A stretch of DNA of 64,000 nt from Streptomyces sp. NBC_00654 (GTDB lineage Bacteria > Actinomycetota > Actinomycetes > Streptomycetales > Streptomycetaceae): assembly GCF_026341775.1 (NCBI RefSeq), contig NZ_JAPEOB010000001.1, positions 3,348,001-3,412,000 of the forward strand. The letters run 5' to 3'. Positions within the stretch are counted from its first letter, which is position 1; each line of letters starts with the position of its first letter. This document shows, one piece after another, positions 39,294-47,182 of this stretch. The notes under the pieces are model-generated. The model saw only the letters and a program-made list of their open reading frames with translations. It was not told where the DNA came from and ran no database searches. The position numbers and the translations under genes are program-made.

Positions 39294-40223
39294 TCAGGGC
39301 GCGTCGCGCAGGACCGTCAGGGGAAGAGCACGCCGGGCCGGGCTCGGCACCACGAGCCCGGCCGGCGGCGTGGCCAGGTCGCCCGGAGCCGGTATCCGCT
39401 CCAGCACACCGCCCGCGAACACGTCGTACAGCGGCAGCGTCTCCAGATGCACATAGCCGATGTGGCAGTCGCACACATCGAGCGGGCAGCCCCGCGGACC
39501 GAGCGCCCGGCGGTAGCTGCCGTCGTAGAGACTGCCCAGCTCCGCGCGGACGAAGTGACACCGCCGCACCGTGCCGTCACCGTCCACGGAGATGACCGAC
39601 TCTCCCGTGCGACAGGGCAGCCCGGCCGACCGGTGCGGATGCCTGCTGTACGGGAACAGCGGGTCCAGCGCCGTCCAGCGGTCCGCCTCCTCGTCCGTGT
39701 AGGTGTGCCCCTCGGCGGCGTTGACCCAGAGATAGACCTCGTCGGGCAGCGCCGCCCGCAGCCGCCGCGCCTCGTCGAGATGGGCGTCGAATCCGACCAC
39801 ACCCACGCTGTAGCGCACCTTGCGAGCGGTGAGCTCCCGGCACTTGCCGAGGAAACGCTCGTACGGCGTCTGACCGGGGTGGTACGTGCACCACAGCGCG
39901 ACCCGGTCCGTATCGGCCCCGGCCAGCCAGTCGGTGCGGCCGCTCAGATTGGTCTGGATGGCCACCCGGGCGATGTGCGGCAGCCGCGACAGCTCGACCA
40001 GCGCCCGCCGGTACCAGGACCTCACCAGACCCTCGCCCCACGGTGTGAACAGGACGGACAGCCGGTCGCCGGTCTGCGCCGCGGCCCACGCGGTGAACCG
40101 CTCCAGAGCCGCCCGGTCCGCCGTCAGCTGTTCCCGGCTGTCACGCCGCTTGGCGAACGGGCAGTACGGACAGTCGTAGTCGCAGGAGGCCAGCGGGCCC
40201 CGGTAGAGAATCGTCAGGTCCAT
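39294..40223 (-). CDS. STM4011-family radical SAM protein
   Basis: 309-residue radical SAM enzyme of an uncharacterised family named after Salmonella STM4011. The [4Fe-4S] motif is SCDYDCPYCPFAKRRDS (CX3CX2C) at about 14-21. TPWGEGLVRSWYRRAL takes the place of the GGE SAM motif. The C-terminal third has extra cysteines (LPCRTGE, RRCHFVRAE, GCPLDVCDCHIG) that could bind an auxiliary cluster as in SPASM-type maturases. ATG 40223 has GTGAGG 6 bp upstream; GTG 40235, overlapping the previous stop as GTGA, is the alternative. It is the last gene of the operon. The family name is well remembered, but the reaction is not known. Confidence 0.88.
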   Translation of the reverse strand: MDLTILYRGPLASCDYDCPYCPFAKRRDSREQLTADRAALERFTAWAAAQTGDRLSVLFTPWGEGLVRSWYRRALVELSRLPHIARVAIQTNLSGRTDWLAGADTDRVALWCTYHPGQTPYERFLGKCRELTARKVRYSVGVVGFDAHLDEARRLRAALPDEVYLWVNAAEGHTYTDEEADRWTALDPLFPYSRHPHRSAGLPCRTGESVISVDGDGTVRRCHFVRAELGSLYDGSYRRALGPRGCPLDVCDCHIGYVHLETLPLYDVFAGGVLERIPAPGDLATPPAGLVVPSPARRALPLTVLRDAP

Positions 40224-40231
40224 GGCGGGCC

Positions 40232-41599
40232 TCACTTCCGTTCGTACGCGGCCATCGCGGCCCGTACCGCGGGGGAGAACAGCTCGGGGCCCAGCGCGTC
40301 GGAGTGGGCCAGCCCCTCGGGGGAGAGCCGCAGCAGATCCCCGCCGGCGCTCCCGTCCAGCCAGCCGCGCGCCGCGAAGCGGTCCAGCTCGGCCGGGAAG
40401 TCCTCGCGCGGATCCGTGCCGAACCGCTGCCGGTACTCCTCGGGCCGCAGACCCGCGGCCTGGAGCAGCGACTGGAGGAGATGGCGCCTGCGCGCCTCGT
40501 CGGTGTCCACATACCGGCCCACCTCGGCCCGGGAGAAGTCCTCGGTCGCGGTGAACCCGTCGATGATGCCGCGGATCTCCCGCATCTCCACCGCGTAGTC
40601 GAAGGAGTAGTGAAGCGACGCGGTGTACGAGCGGGCTCCGCAGCCGAGACCGATCATGCCGTCGGTCTGGCAGGCGTAGTCGTCGGGGCCCTCCGCCGGG
40701 GCGTCGGCACGGCGGAACATCCGCATCGACACCTGCTCGTAGCCATGGGCCAGGAGATGGTCGCGTCCGGCCCGGTAGAGCCGCAGCCGCTGTTCGTCCC
40801 AGGAGTCCGCGGCACGCTCCTCGGCCGCCGGGTCCGCGGCCGTCCCGAGACGGCCGAGGCCGGTCAGCGGGCGTACGTACAGCGGATAGAGGTAGAGCTC
40901 CTCGGGGCGCCAGGCCAGCGCGGCGTCCAGGGAGGTGCGCCAGCTCCGCTCGGTCTGCCCGTCGATGCCGTAGATCAGGTCGATGTTGAGGACCGGCACC
41001 CGGGCGTCACGGATCCGGCCGAGGGCCGCCTCCACATCGGCGCGGTGCTGCGGGCGGACCGCCGCGCGGGCCTCGGCGTCGACGAAGCTCTGCACACCGA
41101 TGCTGATCCTGGTCGCGCCGCGGTCGGCGAGCACGGCCAGCCGGTCCGCCGTCGCGGTCGACGGCGAGGTCTCCACGGACAGCGGCACCGCGCGCAGGTC
41201 GGCGCCCATCCGCTTCTCCGCGATGTCGCAGAGCCGCTCCAGCTCGCCGGCGGTCAGGAAGGTCGGCGTACCGCCGCCGAACGCGGCGGCGGCGAACCGC
41301 ACCGGCTCCTGATCGCCCAGCGCGTCCCGGACGGCGGTCGCCTGCCGGTCCAGCGCGTCGAGATAGCGCGTGGTCAGCTCCTCGGGCGCACCGATCCGGG
41401 TGAAGAGATTGCAGAAGCCGCAGCGGACCTCGCAGAACGGTATGTGGAGATAGAGGGAGAGCGCGTCCTTGGGCTCCGCCGCCCACAGCTCACGCAGCGC
41501 GGGCCGGCCGGTGAGCGGCCGGTAGGCCGTCTTGTGCGGATAGGCGTAGACGTAGCTCTCGTACGGCCTGACGGCGGGCAGGGTCGGGCTGGTCATCAT
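40232..41599 (-). CDS. STM4012-family radical SAM protein (HemN-like)
   Basis: 455-residue radical SAM protein related to coproporphyrinogen dehydrogenase HemN and its relatives. The cluster motif is IPFCEVRCGFCNLFTR (CX3CX2C) at about 55-62. The HemN-type GGGTPTFL, SVETSPSTAT, ISIGVQSF and NIDLIYGIDGQT blocks are intact. HemN itself makes protoporphyrinogen, but HemW-like and methyltransferase relatives do other chemistry, and the context here is not haem. ATG 41599 overlaps the upstream hydrolase stop. With STM4011 it gives the operon two distinct radical SAM activities. Confidence 0.9.
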   Translation of the reverse strand: MMTSPTLPAVRPYESYVYAYPHKTAYRPLTGRPALRELWAAEPKDALSLYLHIPFCEVRCGFCNLFTRIGAPEELTTRYLDALDRQATAVRDALGDQEPVRFAAAAFGGGTPTFLTAGELERLCDIAEKRMGADLRAVPLSVETSPSTATADRLAVLADRGATRISIGVQSFVDAEARAAVRPQHRADVEAALGRIRDARVPVLNIDLIYGIDGQTERSWRTSLDAALAWRPEELYLYPLYVRPLTGLGRLGTAADPAAEERAADSWDEQRLRLYRAGRDHLLAHGYEQVSMRMFRRADAPAEGPDDYACQTDGMIGLGCGARSYTASLHYSFDYAVEMREIRGIIDGFTATEDFSRAEVGRYVDTDEARRRHLLQSLLQAAGLRPEEYRQRFGTDPREDFPAELDRFAARGWLDGSAGGDLLRLSPEGLAHSDALGPELFSPAVRAAMAAYERK

Positions 41600-42405
41600 G
41601 CGTCCCCGGGCTCAAGGAAGAAATGGGCGTACGGCACCGTCCAGACGGCTTCGTGGCCGAGCCGGTGGCCGGTGAAGCCGTCGTCCCCGTAGGCCGTGCC
41701 ATGGTCGGAGCAGACGATCGCGAAGCAGCGGCGGCGGCTGCTCGCCGCGGCGAAGAGCCGGCCGATGTGCCGGTCGACGTACTCCAGGGCGGCGGCGTGC
41801 GTGGCACGGGAGTCGCCCGCCTCGTGGGTGGCGCCCGGCCGGTGGAACCAGTTGGGCTGGTGCAGCGCCGACACATTGACGAACAGGAAGAGCCGCCGCT
41901 CCGGCGGGAGTCCGGCCACGACCTCCTCGGCGCGGGTCACCTGCTCCTCGAAGGAGGTGGGCGAGGCGACACCGAAGCCGGGCTCCCAGTGGCTCTCCTG
42001 GAACATGCCGGGCAGCACCGATCCGAGCGGCCCCTGCCGGTTGAAGAAGCCGACGCCGCCGATGCACACCGTGCGGTAGCCCTCGGCGGCCAGGGCGGAC
42101 ACCAGGTCGGGGGTGTCGAAGACGAAGGTGCCGTCCGCCGTCGTCTCACTGCCCGCGAACCGTGCCGCGAACAGCCGCGGATGCGGCCCCGGGGAGGCGG
42201 GGGTCGGCAGGAACCCGGCGAAGATCGCCTGGTGCGAGGCGTAGGTGAAACTCCCCGGCGCATGCCGCTTCTCCCAGACACCACCGGGCAGATGCCGGGC
42301 CAGATGCGGGATGCGTCCGGCGGCGGCCAGCTCCACGGCGACGTCGTAGCGCAGGGTGTCGAGAGTGACGAGCAGCAGATCGTGACGTCCGACGATCCCG
42401 CTCAT
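41596..42405 (-). CDS. STM4013/SEN3800-family hydrolase (alkaline phosphatase superfamily)
   Basis: 269-residue metal-dependent hydrolase of the sulfatase/phosphatase/phosphodiesterase superfamily, shorter than classical sulfatases. The N-terminal LLLVTLDTLRYDVAVE holds the first metal-binding aspartate and the nucleophile position (Thr), and FAIVCSDHGTAYGDDG with GHRLGHEAVW holds the second metal site. ATG 42405 begins the conserved region (RHDLLLVTLD). GTG 42492, with AAGGAA upstream, would give a 29-residue longer form overlapping the previous gene. There is no signal peptide. It is translationally coupled to the STM4012 gene by a 4-bp overlap. Substrate unknown. Confidence 0.87.
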   Translation of the reverse strand: MSGIVGRHDLLLVTLDTLRYDVAVELAAAGRIPHLARHLPGGVWEKRHAPGSFTYASHQAIFAGFLPTPASPGPHPRLFAARFAGSETTADGTFVFDTPDLVSALAAEGYRTVCIGGVGFFNRQGPLGSVLPGMFQESHWEPGFGVASPTSFEEQVTRAEEVVAGLPPERRLFLFVNVSALHQPNWFHRPGATHEAGDSRATHAAALEYVDRHIGRLFAAASSRRRCFAIVCSDHGTAYGDDGFTGHRLGHEAVWTVPYAHFFLEPGDA

Positions 42406-42472
42406 GGCGGGTTCCCCGGTGTCCGGGGCACCGGTGTCCGGGGTGTGGCCGTCAGGGGTGCGGCGGGCGGGG

Positions 42473-43618
42473 TCAGGGGGCAGCGATGACACGGTGGTTC
42501 CTTGCTCTGTCCAGTACGGCGGCGACCTGCGCCGCATAGGTGTCCAGTCCTTCGGCGCCGCTGCCCGGCAGTCCGGTCAGACCGGGCAGCAGATCACCGA
42601 AGGCGTTGACCTCGCCGATGGCGAACCGCCGCCAGCCGGTGGCCGGCAGCAGATCGACGCCCACGCACAGCGTCCGGGGGAAACAGGCGGCGGCGCGCTC
42701 ACACATCGCGAGCGCCTCCGGCCAGCTGCCGCCCGCCGCCGCGACAGCGGCCCGGACCTCGTCCAGATCGCCCCGGACGCCGCCGAGATGCAGATTCGTC
42801 ATCGGGGACCGGCTGGTCCGCACGACGGCGTGCGTCGCGCGGCCGGCGACGACCACGACCCGCAGATCCGCGGCCCGCCCCCGCTGGGAGGCCTTGGGCA
42901 GCCAGCGCTCGACATGCAGTCCGTCCGGGGCGAGCGCGTCGACGATCGCGGCCACCTCGTGCTCCGTCTCGTACCGCCGCACCCGGAGCGAATTGAACAG
43001 CCGCCCCTCCGCGTCCCGTTCCACCGAGGTGCTCGCCCGGACCCGGCCGGGACCGGCCGTCTCCACGGCCAGCACCCCCGAGGCGGACGAGCCGTGGGCG
43101 AGCTTCACGAACACCCGCGGCATGCCGCGTGCCGCCATCAGCTCGCGCACATCCTCCCAGCCCCGCACGACCGGTGCGGCGGGACCGGACGTCGGTGACG
43201 CAGGCACGGCGACTCCGGCGCCGTCCAGCACGGCATGACACAGCCGCTTGTCGAACAGCGCCGCGATGTCCCCGGGATCGCCGAGCAGGGTGGCGCCCGC
43301 CGCCGAAGCGGCCCGCGCCACCTCCCGCACGGCCTCGGTGAACGCCGCGTACCAGCGTGAGGTCCCCTCCACGCGCGAGGGATCATCCACCCCGCGCAGC
43401 AGCCGCTCCACCTCGGCGTCCTCACCGGGCGAGTCCATCCGTACGGTCTCGCCCGGCCGGAACGTCACCTCACCGGTCAGCACCTGGAGCCAGGACACGA
43501 CACGGACGCCGGGCAGCCCGGCGGCGCGCACGGCTTCCCGGAAGAAGGCGACGCGCCGGTTGTCCGGATTGCCGACGACCGCGAGACGTGGCGCGTGGCT
43601 ACTCGCTGACCGCGACAT
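42473..43618 (-). CDS. STM4014-family protein, ATP-grasp-like
   Basis: 381-residue protein of the uncharacterised STM4014 family. The layout resembles ATP-grasp ligases of the RimK type: an N-terminal domain with a VVGNPDNRRVAFF strand, a central segment with the nucleotide-binding lysine (RVFVKLAHGSSASGVLAVE), ERWLPKASQRGRAADLRVVV, and a C-terminal metal-binding strand FAIGEVNAFGDLLPG. ATP-grasp enzymes form amide bonds by carboxyl phosphorylation; RimK adds glutamates to a protein's C-terminal glutamate. ATG 43618 has AGAGGA 5 bp upstream and lies 20 bp inside the end of the preceding gene. The ATP-grasp assignment is by motif reading. Confidence 0.8.
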   Translation of the reverse strand: MSRSASSHAPRLAVVGNPDNRRVAFFREAVRAAGLPGVRVVSWLQVLTGEVTFRPGETVRMDSPGEDAEVERLLRGVDDPSRVEGTSRWYAAFTEAVREVARAASAAGATLLGDPGDIAALFDKRLCHAVLDGAGVAVPASPTSGPAAPVVRGWEDVRELMAARGMPRVFVKLAHGSSASGVLAVETAGPGRVRASTSVERDAEGRLFNSLRVRRYETEHEVAAIVDALAPDGLHVERWLPKASQRGRAADLRVVVVAGRATHAVVRTSRSPMTNLHLGGVRGDLDEVRAAVAAAGGSWPEALAMCERAAACFPRTLCVGVDLLPATGWRRFAIGEVNAFGDLLPGLTGLPGSGAEGLDTYAAQVAAVLDRARNHRVIAAP

Positions 43619-44546
43619 ACCGTTCCTCTTCGTCCTCATCCACGTACTCCGCCTCGCCACTGACCGAGGCGGGTGCGCAGGCCGCGCGGATGCGGTCGAA
43701 CACCTCGTCGCTCAGGTAGTGGTGATCCAGGTCGAGCGTGGACAGATGGGTCAGCGGCTGCCCGGCCAGGAGCGCCGCCCCGCCGAGGTCGCCGAGGGTG
43801 CCCATGGAGAGCGACAGCGACTTCAGCTGGGCCACGACGGGAGCCGAGGCGACCGCCGCCGCGATCTCGTCCTGGATCTCGCTGTTCTGCAGCCCCAGAT
43901 GGCGAAGCCGGGGGAACGTGCCGCCCGACAGCAGCGGGCCCAGGTCCTCGACCGTCGCGTCGCCCCCGTACCACGTGGACCCGAACCAGATCTCCAGCCG
44001 CTCCAGAGCCGGGAGTTCCGAGGAGGTGACCGCCCGCACGACATGGCCGGGCAGCCCACCGGACTCGAAGCACAGGGACCTCAGGCTCTCGTGGCGCACC
44101 GGAGAGAGCCGCAGCCCCGCCGCCCCCGCGGTCTCCCCGCAGCCGCGCACCAGCAGCTCCTCCAGGAGCGGAAAAGCGGTGAGCACCGGGGTGATGTCCG
44201 ACATCATCAGCCAGGAGATCTCGCACTGCTCGCTCTCCACATCCGCGAGGAACAGGGCCCGCAGCGCGGGGAAGCGGTCCGCGTGTCCGGCGATCAGCTC
44301 CACCACGGGTTCGATGCCGGTGTAATTCCCCTGCCACCACGGGCCGATCACCAGCGCCCGTACCTGCTCGGTGTCGACCGTGTCCAGGAAGTGCTGCCAC
44401 AGCACGGGGAACGTCAGGGAACCCTGCCAGCCGCAGTCCAGCCGCCAGGCGACCGTGTGCGCGGGCGGCAGCTCCGAGGGGTCCCCCTCGCCCGGCTCCG
44501 GAAGCGTATGGACGCGCAGGTCGAAGAAGAGCTCGCTGTCGGTCAT
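43599..44546 (-). CDS. STM4015-family leucine-rich protein, second paralogue
   Basis: 315-residue leucine-rich-repeat-like protein of the STM4015 family. Repeats of the form LPALERLEIW, FPRLRHLGLQN, LKSLSLSMGTLGDLG and LSTLDLDHHYLSDE run through residues 170-290, an LRR solenoid likely to bind proteins. The N-terminal half has AWRLDCGWQ and CEISWLMMSD. The C-terminus is acidic (EYVDEDEE) and ends ERYVAVSE, nearly the same as its neighbour. It lies 5 bp from the upstream paralogue and overlaps STM4014 by 20 bp. No signal peptide. Role unknown: scaffold, sensor or substrate of the operon's enzymes. Confidence 0.86.
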   Translation of the reverse strand: MTDSELFFDLRVHTLPEPGEGDPSELPPAHTVAWRLDCGWQGSLTFPVLWQHFLDTVDTEQVRALVIGPWWQGNYTGIEPVVELIAGHADRFPALRALFLADVESEQCEISWLMMSDITPVLTAFPLLEELLVRGCGETAGAAGLRLSPVRHESLRSLCFESGGLPGHVVRAVTSSELPALERLEIWFGSTWYGGDATVEDLGPLLSGGTFPRLRHLGLQNSEIQDEIAAAVASAPVVAQLKSLSLSMGTLGDLGGAALLAGQPLTHLSTLDLDHHYLSDEVFDRIRAACAPASVSGEAEYVDEDEEERYVAVSE

Positions 44547-44551
44547 CGTGG

Positions 44552-45511
44552 TCACTCCGCCACGGCGGTGTAACGGCCCTCGGGGCCACCGTCGCCCCAG
44601 GGCTCGCTGCGCTCGGAGAGGTCGACCCGGACCCCGTGGGGCACCAGCGAGTCGGTGATCCGGCGTTCCATCGCCTCGGAGAGGAAGTGGTGGTGCAGGT
44701 CGAGCACTTCGAGGTGGGTGAGCGGCTGGCCCTCCAGGAGCGCCGCGGCGCCCTCGTCGCCGAGCGTGCCGTTCGACAGGTCCAGCGTGCGCAGCCGGGC
44801 GACGACCGGGGCCGAGGCGACGGCCGCCGCGATCTCGTTCTCCACCTCGCTGTTGCGCAGGCCCAGATGGTGCAGCCGGGGGAAGCGGGTGCCGGACAGC
44901 AGCGGCGCCAGGTCCGCCACGTCGGCATCGCCGCCGTACGCCGAGACCCCGAGCCACAGGTCGAGCTTCTCCAGCGCGGGCAGCTCGCTGTCCAGCACGC
45001 CCCGTACCACCTGCACGGGCAGACCGCCCGCCTCGATGGTGAGCGAGCGCAGCCGCTCGTGCCTGGTCGCCGGGAACTCCAGGTCGGTGCCGCCGCGCAC
45101 CCCGAACTCCACCAGCGAGGGGAACGCGGTGAGCAGGGCGGTGACGTCCGACTGCTCGATCCAGGAGATCTCCGCCTCCTCCAGCACCAGGTCCCCGACG
45201 AAGATCCCCTCCAGCGAGGTCAGCCGGCCGGCCGCGGCGATGACAAGGCCGATCGGCACGGAGGACGTTTCCTCGTACGACTCGCCCCACTGGCCGATGA
45301 TCAGAGCACGCACCCCGGCCGGATCGACGGCGTCCAGGAATGCCGCGAACTCCTGCTCCCAGGTCCGGTCGGCGTCCTCGTCGTCGTACGGATCGACGCT
45401 GATCCGCCATGCGGCGGCGTCGGCGGCCGGACGGGGTGCTTCGGAGGCGTCACGCTGGAAGTCGACGGCCGGAAGGCCGCACAGCTCGCTGAGATGGTCC
45501 ACACCGGACAT
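44552..45511 (-). CDS. STM4015-family leucine-rich protein, first paralogue and first gene of the operon
   Basis: 319-residue paralogue of the next gene. Matching blocks include AWRISVDPYD, VRALIIGQWG, EISWIEQSD, ALLTAFPSL, AAVASAPVVARLRTLDLSNG and the C-terminal GRYTAVAE. Leucine-rich repeats again cover the second half. The shared DNA segments (for example 43845-43910 and 44810-44875) are close enough to recombine, so this is a tandem duplication that has diverged mainly at the N-terminus. ATG 45511 has AGGAG about 10 bp upstream. It is divergent from the gene at 45689 across a 177-bp region. Confidence 0.86.
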   Translation of the reverse strand: MSGVDHLSELCGLPAVDFQRDASEAPRPAADAAAWRISVDPYDDEDADRTWEQEFAAFLDAVDPAGVRALIIGQWGESYEETSSVPIGLVIAAAGRLTSLEGIFVGDLVLEEAEISWIEQSDVTALLTAFPSLVEFGVRGGTDLEFPATRHERLRSLTIEAGGLPVQVVRGVLDSELPALEKLDLWLGVSAYGGDADVADLAPLLSGTRFPRLHHLGLRNSEVENEIAAAVASAPVVARLRTLDLSNGTLGDEGAAALLEGQPLTHLEVLDLHHHFLSEAMERRITDSLVPHGVRVDLSERSEPWGDGGPEGRYTAVAE

Positions 45512-45569
45512 GGCCCTGAGCTCCTGATGCTGGGAACGGGTTGTTGTCCGCAAGGTCTATCAAGCCCCA

Positions 45570-45624
45570 CTGACAACGCGGTGACCGGGACCTGTCCGGG
45601 GTGCCGCCGCCGGTCGATTGTCAG
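45570..45624. promoter_or_regulatory. Inverted 7-mers in the divergent STM4015/DUF6745 promoter region
   Basis: CTGACAA (45570-45576) and TTGTCAG (45618-45624) are inverted about a centre midway between the two divergent start codons. They contain TTGTCA -35-like hexamers pointing outwards, but no convincing -10 box was found on either side. Confidence 0.3.
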
Positions 45625-45688: not shown

Positions 45689-46015
45689 GTGTACCGGCAG
45701 GGCGATGTACTGATCATGGCGGTGGAGGAGTCGGCGGTGCCCGCCCCCTTCCTCAAGGCGTCGGGCGAACTGCGCGACGGGCGGGGGCGCCTGGTGCTCG
45801 CCCTGGGCGAGGTCACCGGGCACGCGCACGCCGTGCAGGGGCCCGGCCGGCTGATCCGGGAGGCCGGTCCGTTCGGCCCGATGCTCCTTCATCTCCCCGA
45901 GGGCGGCCGGGTGGTGCACGAGGAGCACGCGGTGATCCCGCTGCCGAAGGGCTGGTTCCGGGTCGTGCGCCAGCGGGAGTACGCGCCGGGGGCGATCCGC
46001 ATCGTCGCGGACTGA
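45689..46015 (+). CDS. Hypothetical 108-residue protein paired with the DUF6745 gene
   Basis: Small soluble beta-rich protein starting at GTG 45689 with GAGGGGAG upstream. The sequence opens YRQGDVLIMAV, contains LALGEVTGHAHAVQGPG and ends in a WFRVVRQREYAPGAIRIV strand. It has glycine turns between strands and no signal peptide or membrane helix. I do not recognise a named family. The histidines in GHAHA and HEEHAV could bind a metal. It is divergent from the STM4015 operon and 165 bp upstream of the DUF6745 gene in the same direction, so it probably shares a transcript with that gene. Confidence 0.75.
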   Translation: MYRQGDVLIMAVEESAVPAPFLKASGELRDGRGRLVLALGEVTGHAHAVQGPGRLIREAGPFGPMLLHLPEGGRVVHEEHAVIPLPKGWFRVVRQREYAPGAIRIVAD

Positions 46016-46180
46016 TTCCGCCGGACCGGCAGGCGCCGGCACGACGCGGGCAGACGAGCGAGCACCGGGAACCGGGCTCCGCGGACCGGGGGCCGGACAC
46101 CGGCTCCGCTGCCGGGAACGCGATTTCCGCGATTCCACGGACGAGATACGAGACACGAGAAACAGGGGACGGGACAACCG

Positions 46181-47182
46181 ATGCAGCATGTGAACTCTTG
46201 GCGGACCGTGGCGGCGGCGACGGGCAGGGCGGACCGGGCCGCGGCGGAGGAGGGCGTGCGGCTCGCCTACCGCAGCGCGGGCCTCGCCGAGCCGGGACGG
46301 ATCATCTGGGCCGACTCGCCGCGCGCGGCGGTCGGCGTGGTGGAGAAGCTGGCCGACGCCGGCCGTTCGGTCCGCGATGACATCCGCACCCGGCCCTGGG
46401 CCGAGGAACGCCGCCGGATGTACGACGAGTTGGGCCCCGCGGGCTGGTCCGCGCTCTGGTCCGCCACCGGGGCCCAGCTCTGGGAGACCACGGCGGCCCT
46501 CGCCGAACGGATACGGACGGGTGTCGTCGCGGACCTCGCCGCACGGCCGGAGGACGAGTCCGGTGTCCGGCTGCTGCTGCTCGACGCCGTCCTCGGACAG
46601 CACGACGCCGCCTGGCTCGCCGCCTTCGACGGGCGCGGCGAGCGGTTGACCGGCCTCGCGGAGGTCGCCCGCAACGCTGGCTGGTGGTGGCCGTACGAGA
46701 ACGCCGTGGTGATCAGCGAGCGCCCCGAGGCGCTGCACCGGGACGAGGCGGGACGACTCGACCACGGGGACGGTCCGGCCCTCAGCTACGCGGACGGCTT
46801 CGCGCTGTACGCGTGGCGGGGGATGCCGGTTCCCGCCGAATTCCTGGCGGAACTGCCGGCCCTGACCCCGGAGCGGATACGCGCCGAGGAGAACGCGGAA
46901 CTGCGCCGCGTGATGCTGGAGTACTACGGCTACGACCGCTACCTCACCGAATCCCGCGCCGAACCGGTCCACCGCGACGAGACGGGCATCCTCTGGCGGA
47001 TCGCGCTGGACGGGGACGAGGACGTGGTGATGGTCGAGGTGGTCAACTCCACTCCCGAACCGGACGGCACGCACCGCACCTACTGGCTGCGGGTACCGCC
47101 GTCGACGCGGACGGCGAAGGACGGAGTCGCGTGGACCTTCGGAATCGACGGCGCGGCCTACGCGCCGGTGCGCCAGACCTGA
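46181..47182 (+). CDS. DUF6745 domain-containing protein
   Basis: 333-residue cytoplasmic protein. The C-terminal half has the DUF6745 pattern: PEALHRDEAGRLDHGDGPAL, then YADGFALYAWRGMPVP, and an LEYYGYDRYL block. The N-terminal half is helical with tryptophan-rich ARNAGWWWPYENAVVISERP. The repeated HRDExG...W pattern (HRDEAGRL, HRDETGILW) suggests an internal duplication. Function unknown. In this window it sits head-to-head with an LRR-containing maturase operon. GGGGACGGGAC precedes ATG 46181. The family name is recalled from memory. Confidence 0.8.
   Translation: MQHVNSWRTVAAATGRADRAAAEEGVRLAYRSAGLAEPGRIIWADSPRAAVGVVEKLADAGRSVRDDIRTRPWAEERRRMYDELGPAGWSALWSATGAQLWETTAALAERIRTGVVADLAARPEDESGVRLLLLDAVLGQHDAAWLAAFDGRGERLTGLAEVARNAGWWWPYENAVVISERPEALHRDEAGRLDHGDGPALSYADGFALYAWRGMPVPAEFLAELPALTPERIRAEENAELRRVMLEYYGYDRYLTESRAEPVHRDETGILWRIALDGDEDVVMVEVVNSTPEPDGTHRTYWLRVPPSTRTAKDGVAWTFGIDGAAYAPVRQT

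Follow-up and report, generated by a model that had tools for sequence, protein, structure and literature searches.

What could two radical S-adenosylmethionine (SAM) enzymes, a hydrolase, an ATP-grasp protein and a pair of leucine-rich repeat (LRR) proteins be making together? The question is raised by a locus of Streptomyces sp. NBC_00654, at positions 39294-45511 of a 64,000-nucleotide stretch of its 9.6-Mb genome (contig NZ_JAPEOB010000001.1, positions 3,348,001 to 3,412,000; this whole stretch is called the window below), where six minus-strand genes encode members of the families STM4011, STM4012, STM4013, STM4014 and, twice, STM4015. On balance, we regard these families as a system for the modification of a protein C-terminus, acting on the terminal glutamate of STM4015. 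It is best read as a carrier-like system, or one like those making ribosomally synthesized and post-translationally modified peptides (RiPPs), in which a modification would be built on the C-terminus of an LRR scaffold of about 300 residues; the chemistry and the product are inferred.

All six proteins score above their NCBIfam cut-offs, with start codons chosen by us from the sequence. STM4015-A (44552-45511; 388 bits, cut-off 275), the proposed substrate or scaffold, ends in GRYTAVAE (tail codons 44555-44578), and STM4015-B (43599-44546; NF038076, 366 bits, cut-off 275), 48% identical to it, ends in ERYVAVSE (43602-43625). They are followed by STM4014 (42473-43618; 465 bits, cut-off 175), the ATP-grasp protein; STM4013 (41596-42405; NF038075, 421 bits, cut-off 250), a hydrolase of the alkaline-phosphatase superfamily; STM4012 (40232-41599; PRK08208 (NF006067), 649 bits, cut-off 380), a HemN-like radical SAM enzyme; and STM4011 (39294-40223; NF038073, 415 bits, cut-off 200), a radical SAM enzyme with a SkfB-like set of C-terminal cysteines. 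A first-pass annotation had named the STM4011-STM4015 families, with two leucine-rich proteins, and had described six genes on one strand with overlaps or gaps of at most 67 bp; both statements are borne out, the widest intergenic gap (67 bp) preceding STM4013. STM4014 and STM4015-B overlap by 20 bp (43599-43618), the start codon of the former lying within the tail codons of the latter. Among the matches listed, all relatives of STM4015-A with an organism name came from Streptomyces.

The STM4015 tail and the spread of the unit

STM4015 has a folded LRR body joined by an acidic linker, which varies in length, to a conserved tail that in most cases reads R-[Y/F]-x-x-[V/L/I]-[T/S/A/G]-E. The pattern was first noticed when C-termini were compared across phyla, and no earlier description of it was found in the open-access literature searched. 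In a first protein search the terminal Glu was present in all 120 listed relatives (the best 120 of 2768); when sequences from Bacteroides, Salmonella, Paenibacillus and Methylobacterium served as seeds for another search, it was present in 116 of the 120 listed (the best 120 of 1365). One of the four exceptions, P0174, also carries ATP-grasp domains; P0181, of 241 amino acids, stops inside the LRR; P0213 differs at its C-terminus and carries an additional domain; and P0214 is taken up below. When 395 STM4015 sequences were clustered, 73 of the 75 representatives, all but P0174 and P0213, had a terminal Glu. Among these 73, the relative entropy was 3.6 bits at the last position (-1) and 3.9 bits at -6 (Tyr in 51, Phe in 11), with 2.1-2.7 bits at the other tail positions to -8; along the acidic linker it was 1.2-1.8 bits at -9 to -15, 0.6-0.8 at -16 to -19 and 1.2 at -20. 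Glu makes up 8% of the residues of these proteins. In an alignment of 35 sequences, chosen by us and all tail-bearing, 18 columns are invariant, the terminal Glu among them.

The tail is kept though whole-protein identity to STM4015-A drops to 31%, and it is kept away from the operon: in Embleya copies (L126, L127) read without operon genes around them, in a copy of Streptomyces cadmiisoli that lies some 28 kb from STM4014 and in a copy about 100 kb from its operon in the genome G161. On plasmids, STM4015 occurs at up to four places per record, with STM4014 and STM4011 at one each, and 51 of 80 Streptomyces loci hold two STM4015 matches, although in at least one of these (L071) the two are fragments of one gene. 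Overlap with the STM4014 start codon does not by itself explain why the tail is conserved: it is also kept in STM4015-A, in the unlinked copies, and in Paenibacillus and E. coli, whose genes end 58 and 59 bp ahead of STM4014. STM4015 is probably the substrate of the unit, with its tail as the part that would be acted upon.

STM4011-4015 is one real unit. The first-pass annotation had held that rare co-occurrence of the families outside Streptomyces would speak against a single pathway; they are found together in several phyla. Among 296 genomes of the host's phylum, six have matches above cut-off to all five families and the other 290 have none to any of them, though five of the six belong to the host's genus and hence are not independent. 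The STM4014 model matched 59 genomes of this set, 53 of them below the cut-off and taken for other ATP-grasps. Of the 80 Streptomyces-type loci, which had been picked by STM4011, 77 show the five families in identical order and strand; two of the three exceptions lie near contig ends (L039, L046) and the third is L064, discussed below. In a plasmid collection, STM4014 was found in 13 of 72,556 records and STM4011 in the same 13, while STM4015 was found on those 13 and on one Calothrix record. Annotated loci with the order STM4015-4014-4013-4012-4011 come from Salmonella (two records), Paenibacillus, Methylobacterium, Deinococcus (three) and Streptomyces (two); this order is shared by Deinococcota, Pseudomonadota and Bacillota. 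On a Bacteroides finegoldii plasmid STM4015, STM4014 and STM4011 are annotated, the last fused to a HAD domain (PF08282), and these frames are open; STM4013 and STM4012 survive only as pieces, the start of the one and the end of the other (L113:9704-10070). The STM4014-4011 stretch is present in 154 of 5426 complete E. coli genomes, always on the chromosome. In the one E. coli region read (A0 34/86), STM4015 adjoins this stretch, and the unit lies between ompL and a HAD gene beside typA, the same setting as in the Salmonella records.

The enzymes

Structure comparison places STM4014 nearest to ArgX, LysX and RimK, one matched entry being RimK with its partner RpsF, and the protein shares core motifs with this group; it is also structurally close to the graspetide ligase PsnB. 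ArgX, LysX and RimK are ligases for a protein's C-terminus, RimK glutamylating that of ribosomal protein S6. Against the NCBIfam model rimK_fam, STM4014 reached 23.5 bits, below the cut-off of 143.4.

For the radical SAM enzymes, the first-pass annotation had pointed out CX3CX2C motifs in both and extra C-terminal cysteines in STM4011, and had made the idea of a single pathway depend on their conservation. They were found invariant in the sequences compared, 10 of each family: C13, C17, C20, C203, C221, C245, C250 and C252 in STM4011 (first Met left off) and C56, C60 and C63 in STM4012. The C-terminal cysteines of STM4011 read CX12GX4C, then CX4CXC, and five cysteines align with SkfB (6efn, E 3e-4); together with the CX3CX2C motif, they suggest the auxiliary-cluster type of the SPASM/twitch enzymes, cluster binding being putative. 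The full seven-cysteine SPASM pattern is CX9-15GX4C, then CX2CX5CX3C, then C; its first half is present in STM4011 and its second half is replaced by CX4CXC, and no Pfam SPASM match was listed at E up to 1. STM4011 also weakly resembles anSME (E 0.08). STM4012 matches the structural entries of HemN (1olt, E 6e-54) and NocN (9p2u, E 2e-33), and scores 124, 125 and 139 bits against the HemN, HemW and HutW models, whose cut-offs are 325, 205 and 400.

STM4013 scores above cut-off with Pfam's Sulfatase model, and among solved structures it matches a nucleotide pyrophosphatase/phosphodiesterase best (7n1s, E 2e-7). Type I sulfatases carry a Cys or Ser in a C/S-x-P-S-R motif; this motif was absent from a 10-sequence alignment of STM4013, in which the Thr of a FTYASHQ-type motif is invariant at the probable nucleophile position. 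A second STM4013-type hydrolase of the same genome (G000:C2:1824148-1824975; L138:8649-9479; 355 bits, above the cut-off) is encoded directly 3' of a nucleotidyl transferase gene (PF00483), and in other Streptomyces such relatives lie near radical SAM (PF04055), thymidylate-kinase-like (PF02223) and NUDIX (PF00293) genes. These neighbours hint at phosphorylated small molecules.

A scheme can be proposed in which the LRR body would be the recognition (leader-like) part and STM4014 would phosphorylate a carboxylate of the terminal Glu and join an amine to it. Further changes to the tail, or to the group joined to it, would next fall to both radical SAM enzymes, and STM4013 would remove phosphate from the donor or the adduct, alongside the HAD hydrolase that adjoins the unit in enterobacteria and is fused to STM4011 in Bacteroides. 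The earlier picture of one pathway stands on the co-occurrence and the invariant cysteines, and that of a protein scaffold surrounded by radical chemistry, ligation and hydrolysis is supported and sharpened, the LRR protein being substrate-like and its C-terminal Glu site-like; that the whole is a maturation pathway remains an interpretation.

A damage-like promoter and divergent neighbours

In the window, a near-consensus RecA-NDp (PafBC-type) promoter, TTGTCAGTG-N8-TAGACCT, lies ahead of STM4015-A (45553-45576, minus strand). A box TGTC[A/G]GTG-N8-TA precedes the first STM4015 in 73 of the 78 Streptomyces loci with enough upstream sequence, and only 83 matches to it were found anywhere in these 78 loci on both strands; the five loci without it keep the second half TTGGTAGAA[C/A]T. 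Copies of STM4015 remote from the operon carry the box as well, 65 bp ahead of the annotated start in S. cadmiisoli and about 90 bp ahead of the likely start, as placed by us, in G161. The host genome holds two adjacent WYL-domain genes (C2, 1.53 Mb), which we take to be the arrangement expected of pafB-pafC. The consensus given for RecA-independent damage promoters in the part of the source available is tTGTCRgtg-8nt-TannnT (PMC5656591), and a UV-inducible macrodomain gene of S. coelicolor is described, likewise in an excerpt, as preceded by such a promoter (PMC5087735). The first box, the spacing and the TA agree with this consensus in the 73 loci, the T falling one base late in all tabulated variants; in the window, this late final T is the one mismatch.

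Across the window's genome the consensus, with at most one mismatch, occurs at 107 sites, against 11 for a reversed control. Exact sites number 23. Ten downstream frames, chosen by eye, were scanned with Pfam; two gave no match and eight matched RecA, RuvC, UvrB, a UvrD-type helicase, uracil-DNA glycosylase, O6-methylguanine-DNA methyltransferase, an AlkZ-like protein and ThyX (Thy1). These promoter patterns make it probable that the Streptomyces operon is induced by DNA damage via PafBC. As an observation in its own right, the 107 sites look like a genome-wide damage regulon, and the 13 exact sites outside the scan could hold new damage-response genes. In other phyla, upstream regions were searched for LexA boxes and a Deinococcus-type damage motif; the sole match was CTG-N10-CAG in Bacteroides at -169, which looks like a terminator hairpin.

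Beyond the promoter, two genes run divergently from the operon on the plus strand. One encodes a 108-residue protein without a named family (45689-46015; in 71 of the 80 Streptomyces loci) that carries RQGDV...HEEH...QREY, and the other a DUF6745 protein (46181-47182; PF20530, 388 bits; in 70 of the 80). Both are regarded as accessory genes. The pair is again found close to the operon in Deinococcus, Methylobacterium and other Streptomyces, and DUF6745 was found in 4 of the 6 operon genomes and in 5 of the 290 other genomes of the phylum. Neither is retained as a further substrate, the sequences compared having no STM4015 tail. This pair (45689-47182), the promoter and the conserved tail were features absent from the first-pass annotation.

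Alternatives, known systems and meaning

Several observations weigh against a C-terminal modification of STM4015. One near full-length relative, P0214, has no final TE. In Streptomyces sp. ISL-43 (L064:6760-6900), STM4014 is gone from between STM4015 and STM4013 and the STM4015 tail still reads RYIAVAE; a copy of STM4014 elsewhere in that genome was not sought. On the Calothrix plasmid (L125:1999-3285), an STM4015 relative ends in RYCSVAE, and the 8.2 kb examined there hold none of the other members. For STM4014, the Z gap between the LysX and RimK rows and glutathione synthetase is small (ranks 9 and 10 tied), biotin carboxylase and D-Ala-D-Ala ligase are also matched by sequence alone, and the window's protein has no GSWGR and reads KLAHGSSASG where LysX has KPVIGS; GSWGR is given, in the part of the source at hand, as the motif by which LysX and ArgX recognise LysW (PMC10433800). 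The last two blocks of the STM4015 model, which hold the tail, have a mean predicted local distance difference test score (pLDDT) of 88 and 84, and in the crystal structure 2ra8, which is a Bacteroides STM4015 (Q64V53_BACFR, E 4e-122), the aligned range extends to residue 357, the tail end. Because the model is fairly confident and the aligned range reaches its end, the tail may pack on the LRR instead of dangling as a free core. As to damage control, the exact box was found in none of 16 loci from other plasmids and E. coli (the 80 Streptomyces loci, L128 and the window not counted), one of them, in S. fungicidicus (L122), having a one-mismatch box by inspection.

One alternative, in line with the fairly confident model and the 2ra8 alignment, makes the tail a structural LRR cap or a stability signal rather than a reaction site. 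We consider this improbable, for an invariant last residue behind a linker of variable length is more than a cap would require, and the tail persists at whole-protein identities as low as 31%. LRR domains usually bind other proteins, and a tail fixed relative to the C-terminus with a variable linker ahead of it suits a docking motif too; STM4015 could be a docking or regulatory scaffold whose tail binds the enzymes, the true substrate being a small molecule or another protein. This is rather unlikely in our judgement: it is STM4015 that multiplies, the enzymes remaining single-copy, and nothing else that regularly accompanies the unit looked like a substrate gene. It would also take a coincidence to bring an ATP-grasp of the type that acts on C-terminal glutamates next to a protein with an invariant C-terminal Glu. 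A reading of STM4012 as a heme enzyme and STM4011 as the anSME-like activator of STM4013 as a sulfatase, with the LRR proteins as bystanders, draws on the HemN, anSME and Sulfatase matches given above and is highly improbable given the missing sulfatase motif, the invariant Thr, the pyrophosphatase match and the scores of STM4012 far below the HemN, HemW and HutW cut-offs. A defence system was rejected too, the sole PADLOC match among 8 proteins scanned being STM4012 to PDC-M51A (24 bits, residues 156-241), as was a phage origin, the core proteins giving weak PHROG matches alone (E 0.035 and worse).

The likeliest of the alternatives makes STM4015 a removable carrier, comparable to LysW or to the scaffold of pearlins: an amino compound loaded on its terminal Glu by STM4014 would be reworked by the radical SAM enzymes and STM4013, and a general peptidase would free a small product. 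LysW, too, has an acidic C-terminal stretch closed by a Glu, invariant there and present in 73 of 75 STM4015 representatives; the gamma-carboxyl of this LysW residue is loaded by LysX or ArgX, adjoining ATP-grasps of the fold nearest STM4014 (PMC10433800, in the part available). Pearlins (PEARL, the peptide aminoacyl-tRNA ligases; TglA/TmoA) are, in the excerpt available, also built at the C-terminus of a ribosomal carrier, in one case with a radical SAM step (PMC9303977), and the neighbours of STM4013-type hydrolases elsewhere fit this reading. However, LysW is a zinc-binding protein of 54 residues unlike the large LRR scaffold, and its EDWGE tail and zinc-binding cysteines, as described in the same excerpt (PMC10433800), are not found in STM4015; the unit also adds two radical SAM enzymes, and STM4014 lacks GSWGR. 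The STM4014 loader is ATP-grasp-like and not a PEARL, and STM4015 is much larger than TglA, of 50 residues in the part of the source seen (PMC9016710). No peptidase or exporter recurs among the annotated neighbours of the unit, the plasmid gene tables being incomplete, and an S41 peptidase about 4 kb upstream was seen in the Bacteroides region alone. For this reason a lasting modification is slightly favoured over a released metabolite; the carrier reading, close behind, keeps a real though minor chance.

Of the other known systems, RimK is an ATP-grasp of the same structural group, whereas STM4014 has a dedicated LRR partner next door together with radical SAM enzymes and a hydrolase. SkfB-type RiPPs share the SkfB-like cysteine set of STM4011, graspetides share the PsnB-like structure of STM4014, and both combine a recognition part with a C-terminal core; in STM4015, however, the recognition part is a folded LRR, and no small precursor, dedicated peptidase or exporter was seen. 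Overall, the unit would appear to work like a carrier-protein or RiPP system, yet lacks features that mark membership of LysW/LysX, RimK, HemN or the full SPASM group.

The gene families and their names were already known, and the tail and the proposal of STM4015 as substrate are new here. The NCBIfam entries STM4011-4015 and PDB 2ra8 describe the same proteins as 'family protein' or 'uncharacterized protein', naming no function, and no substrate role was found stated. In the open-access literature no assigned function was found for STM4011-4015, which appeared in table entries alone, in sources accessible in part; subscription or unpublished work may exist. DUF6745, 2ra8, Q64V53 and SEN3800 were not found mentioned there, and among the matches listed for the combination of LRR, RiPP and radical SAM, no title or abstract start concerned the system. 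Under the terms used, the accessible parts of PMC8939145 (graspetides), PMC2879425 (internalin and an unrelated radical SAM gene), PMC4431377 and PMC7794033 did not mention it.

Named families for which no function was found are present in organisms as convenient in the laboratory as E. coli, and the C-terminal modification proposed for them is specific as to substrate, residue and class of reaction. Tentatively, this may be a new kind of ribosomal biosynthesis, in which the folded protein of about 300 residues takes the place of a short peptide and serves as leader and carrier at once, its terminal Glu extended by the ATP-grasp and its tail turned by the radical SAM enzymes into a protein-bound cofactor or signal; in Streptomyces this might form part of the PafBC damage response, the unlinked LRR copies, with their shared promoter and tail, being processed in trans by the single enzyme set. 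If true, carrier-based and RiPP-like chemistry would be extended to folded repeat proteins, and a new protein modification would be added to the actinobacterial DNA-damage response.

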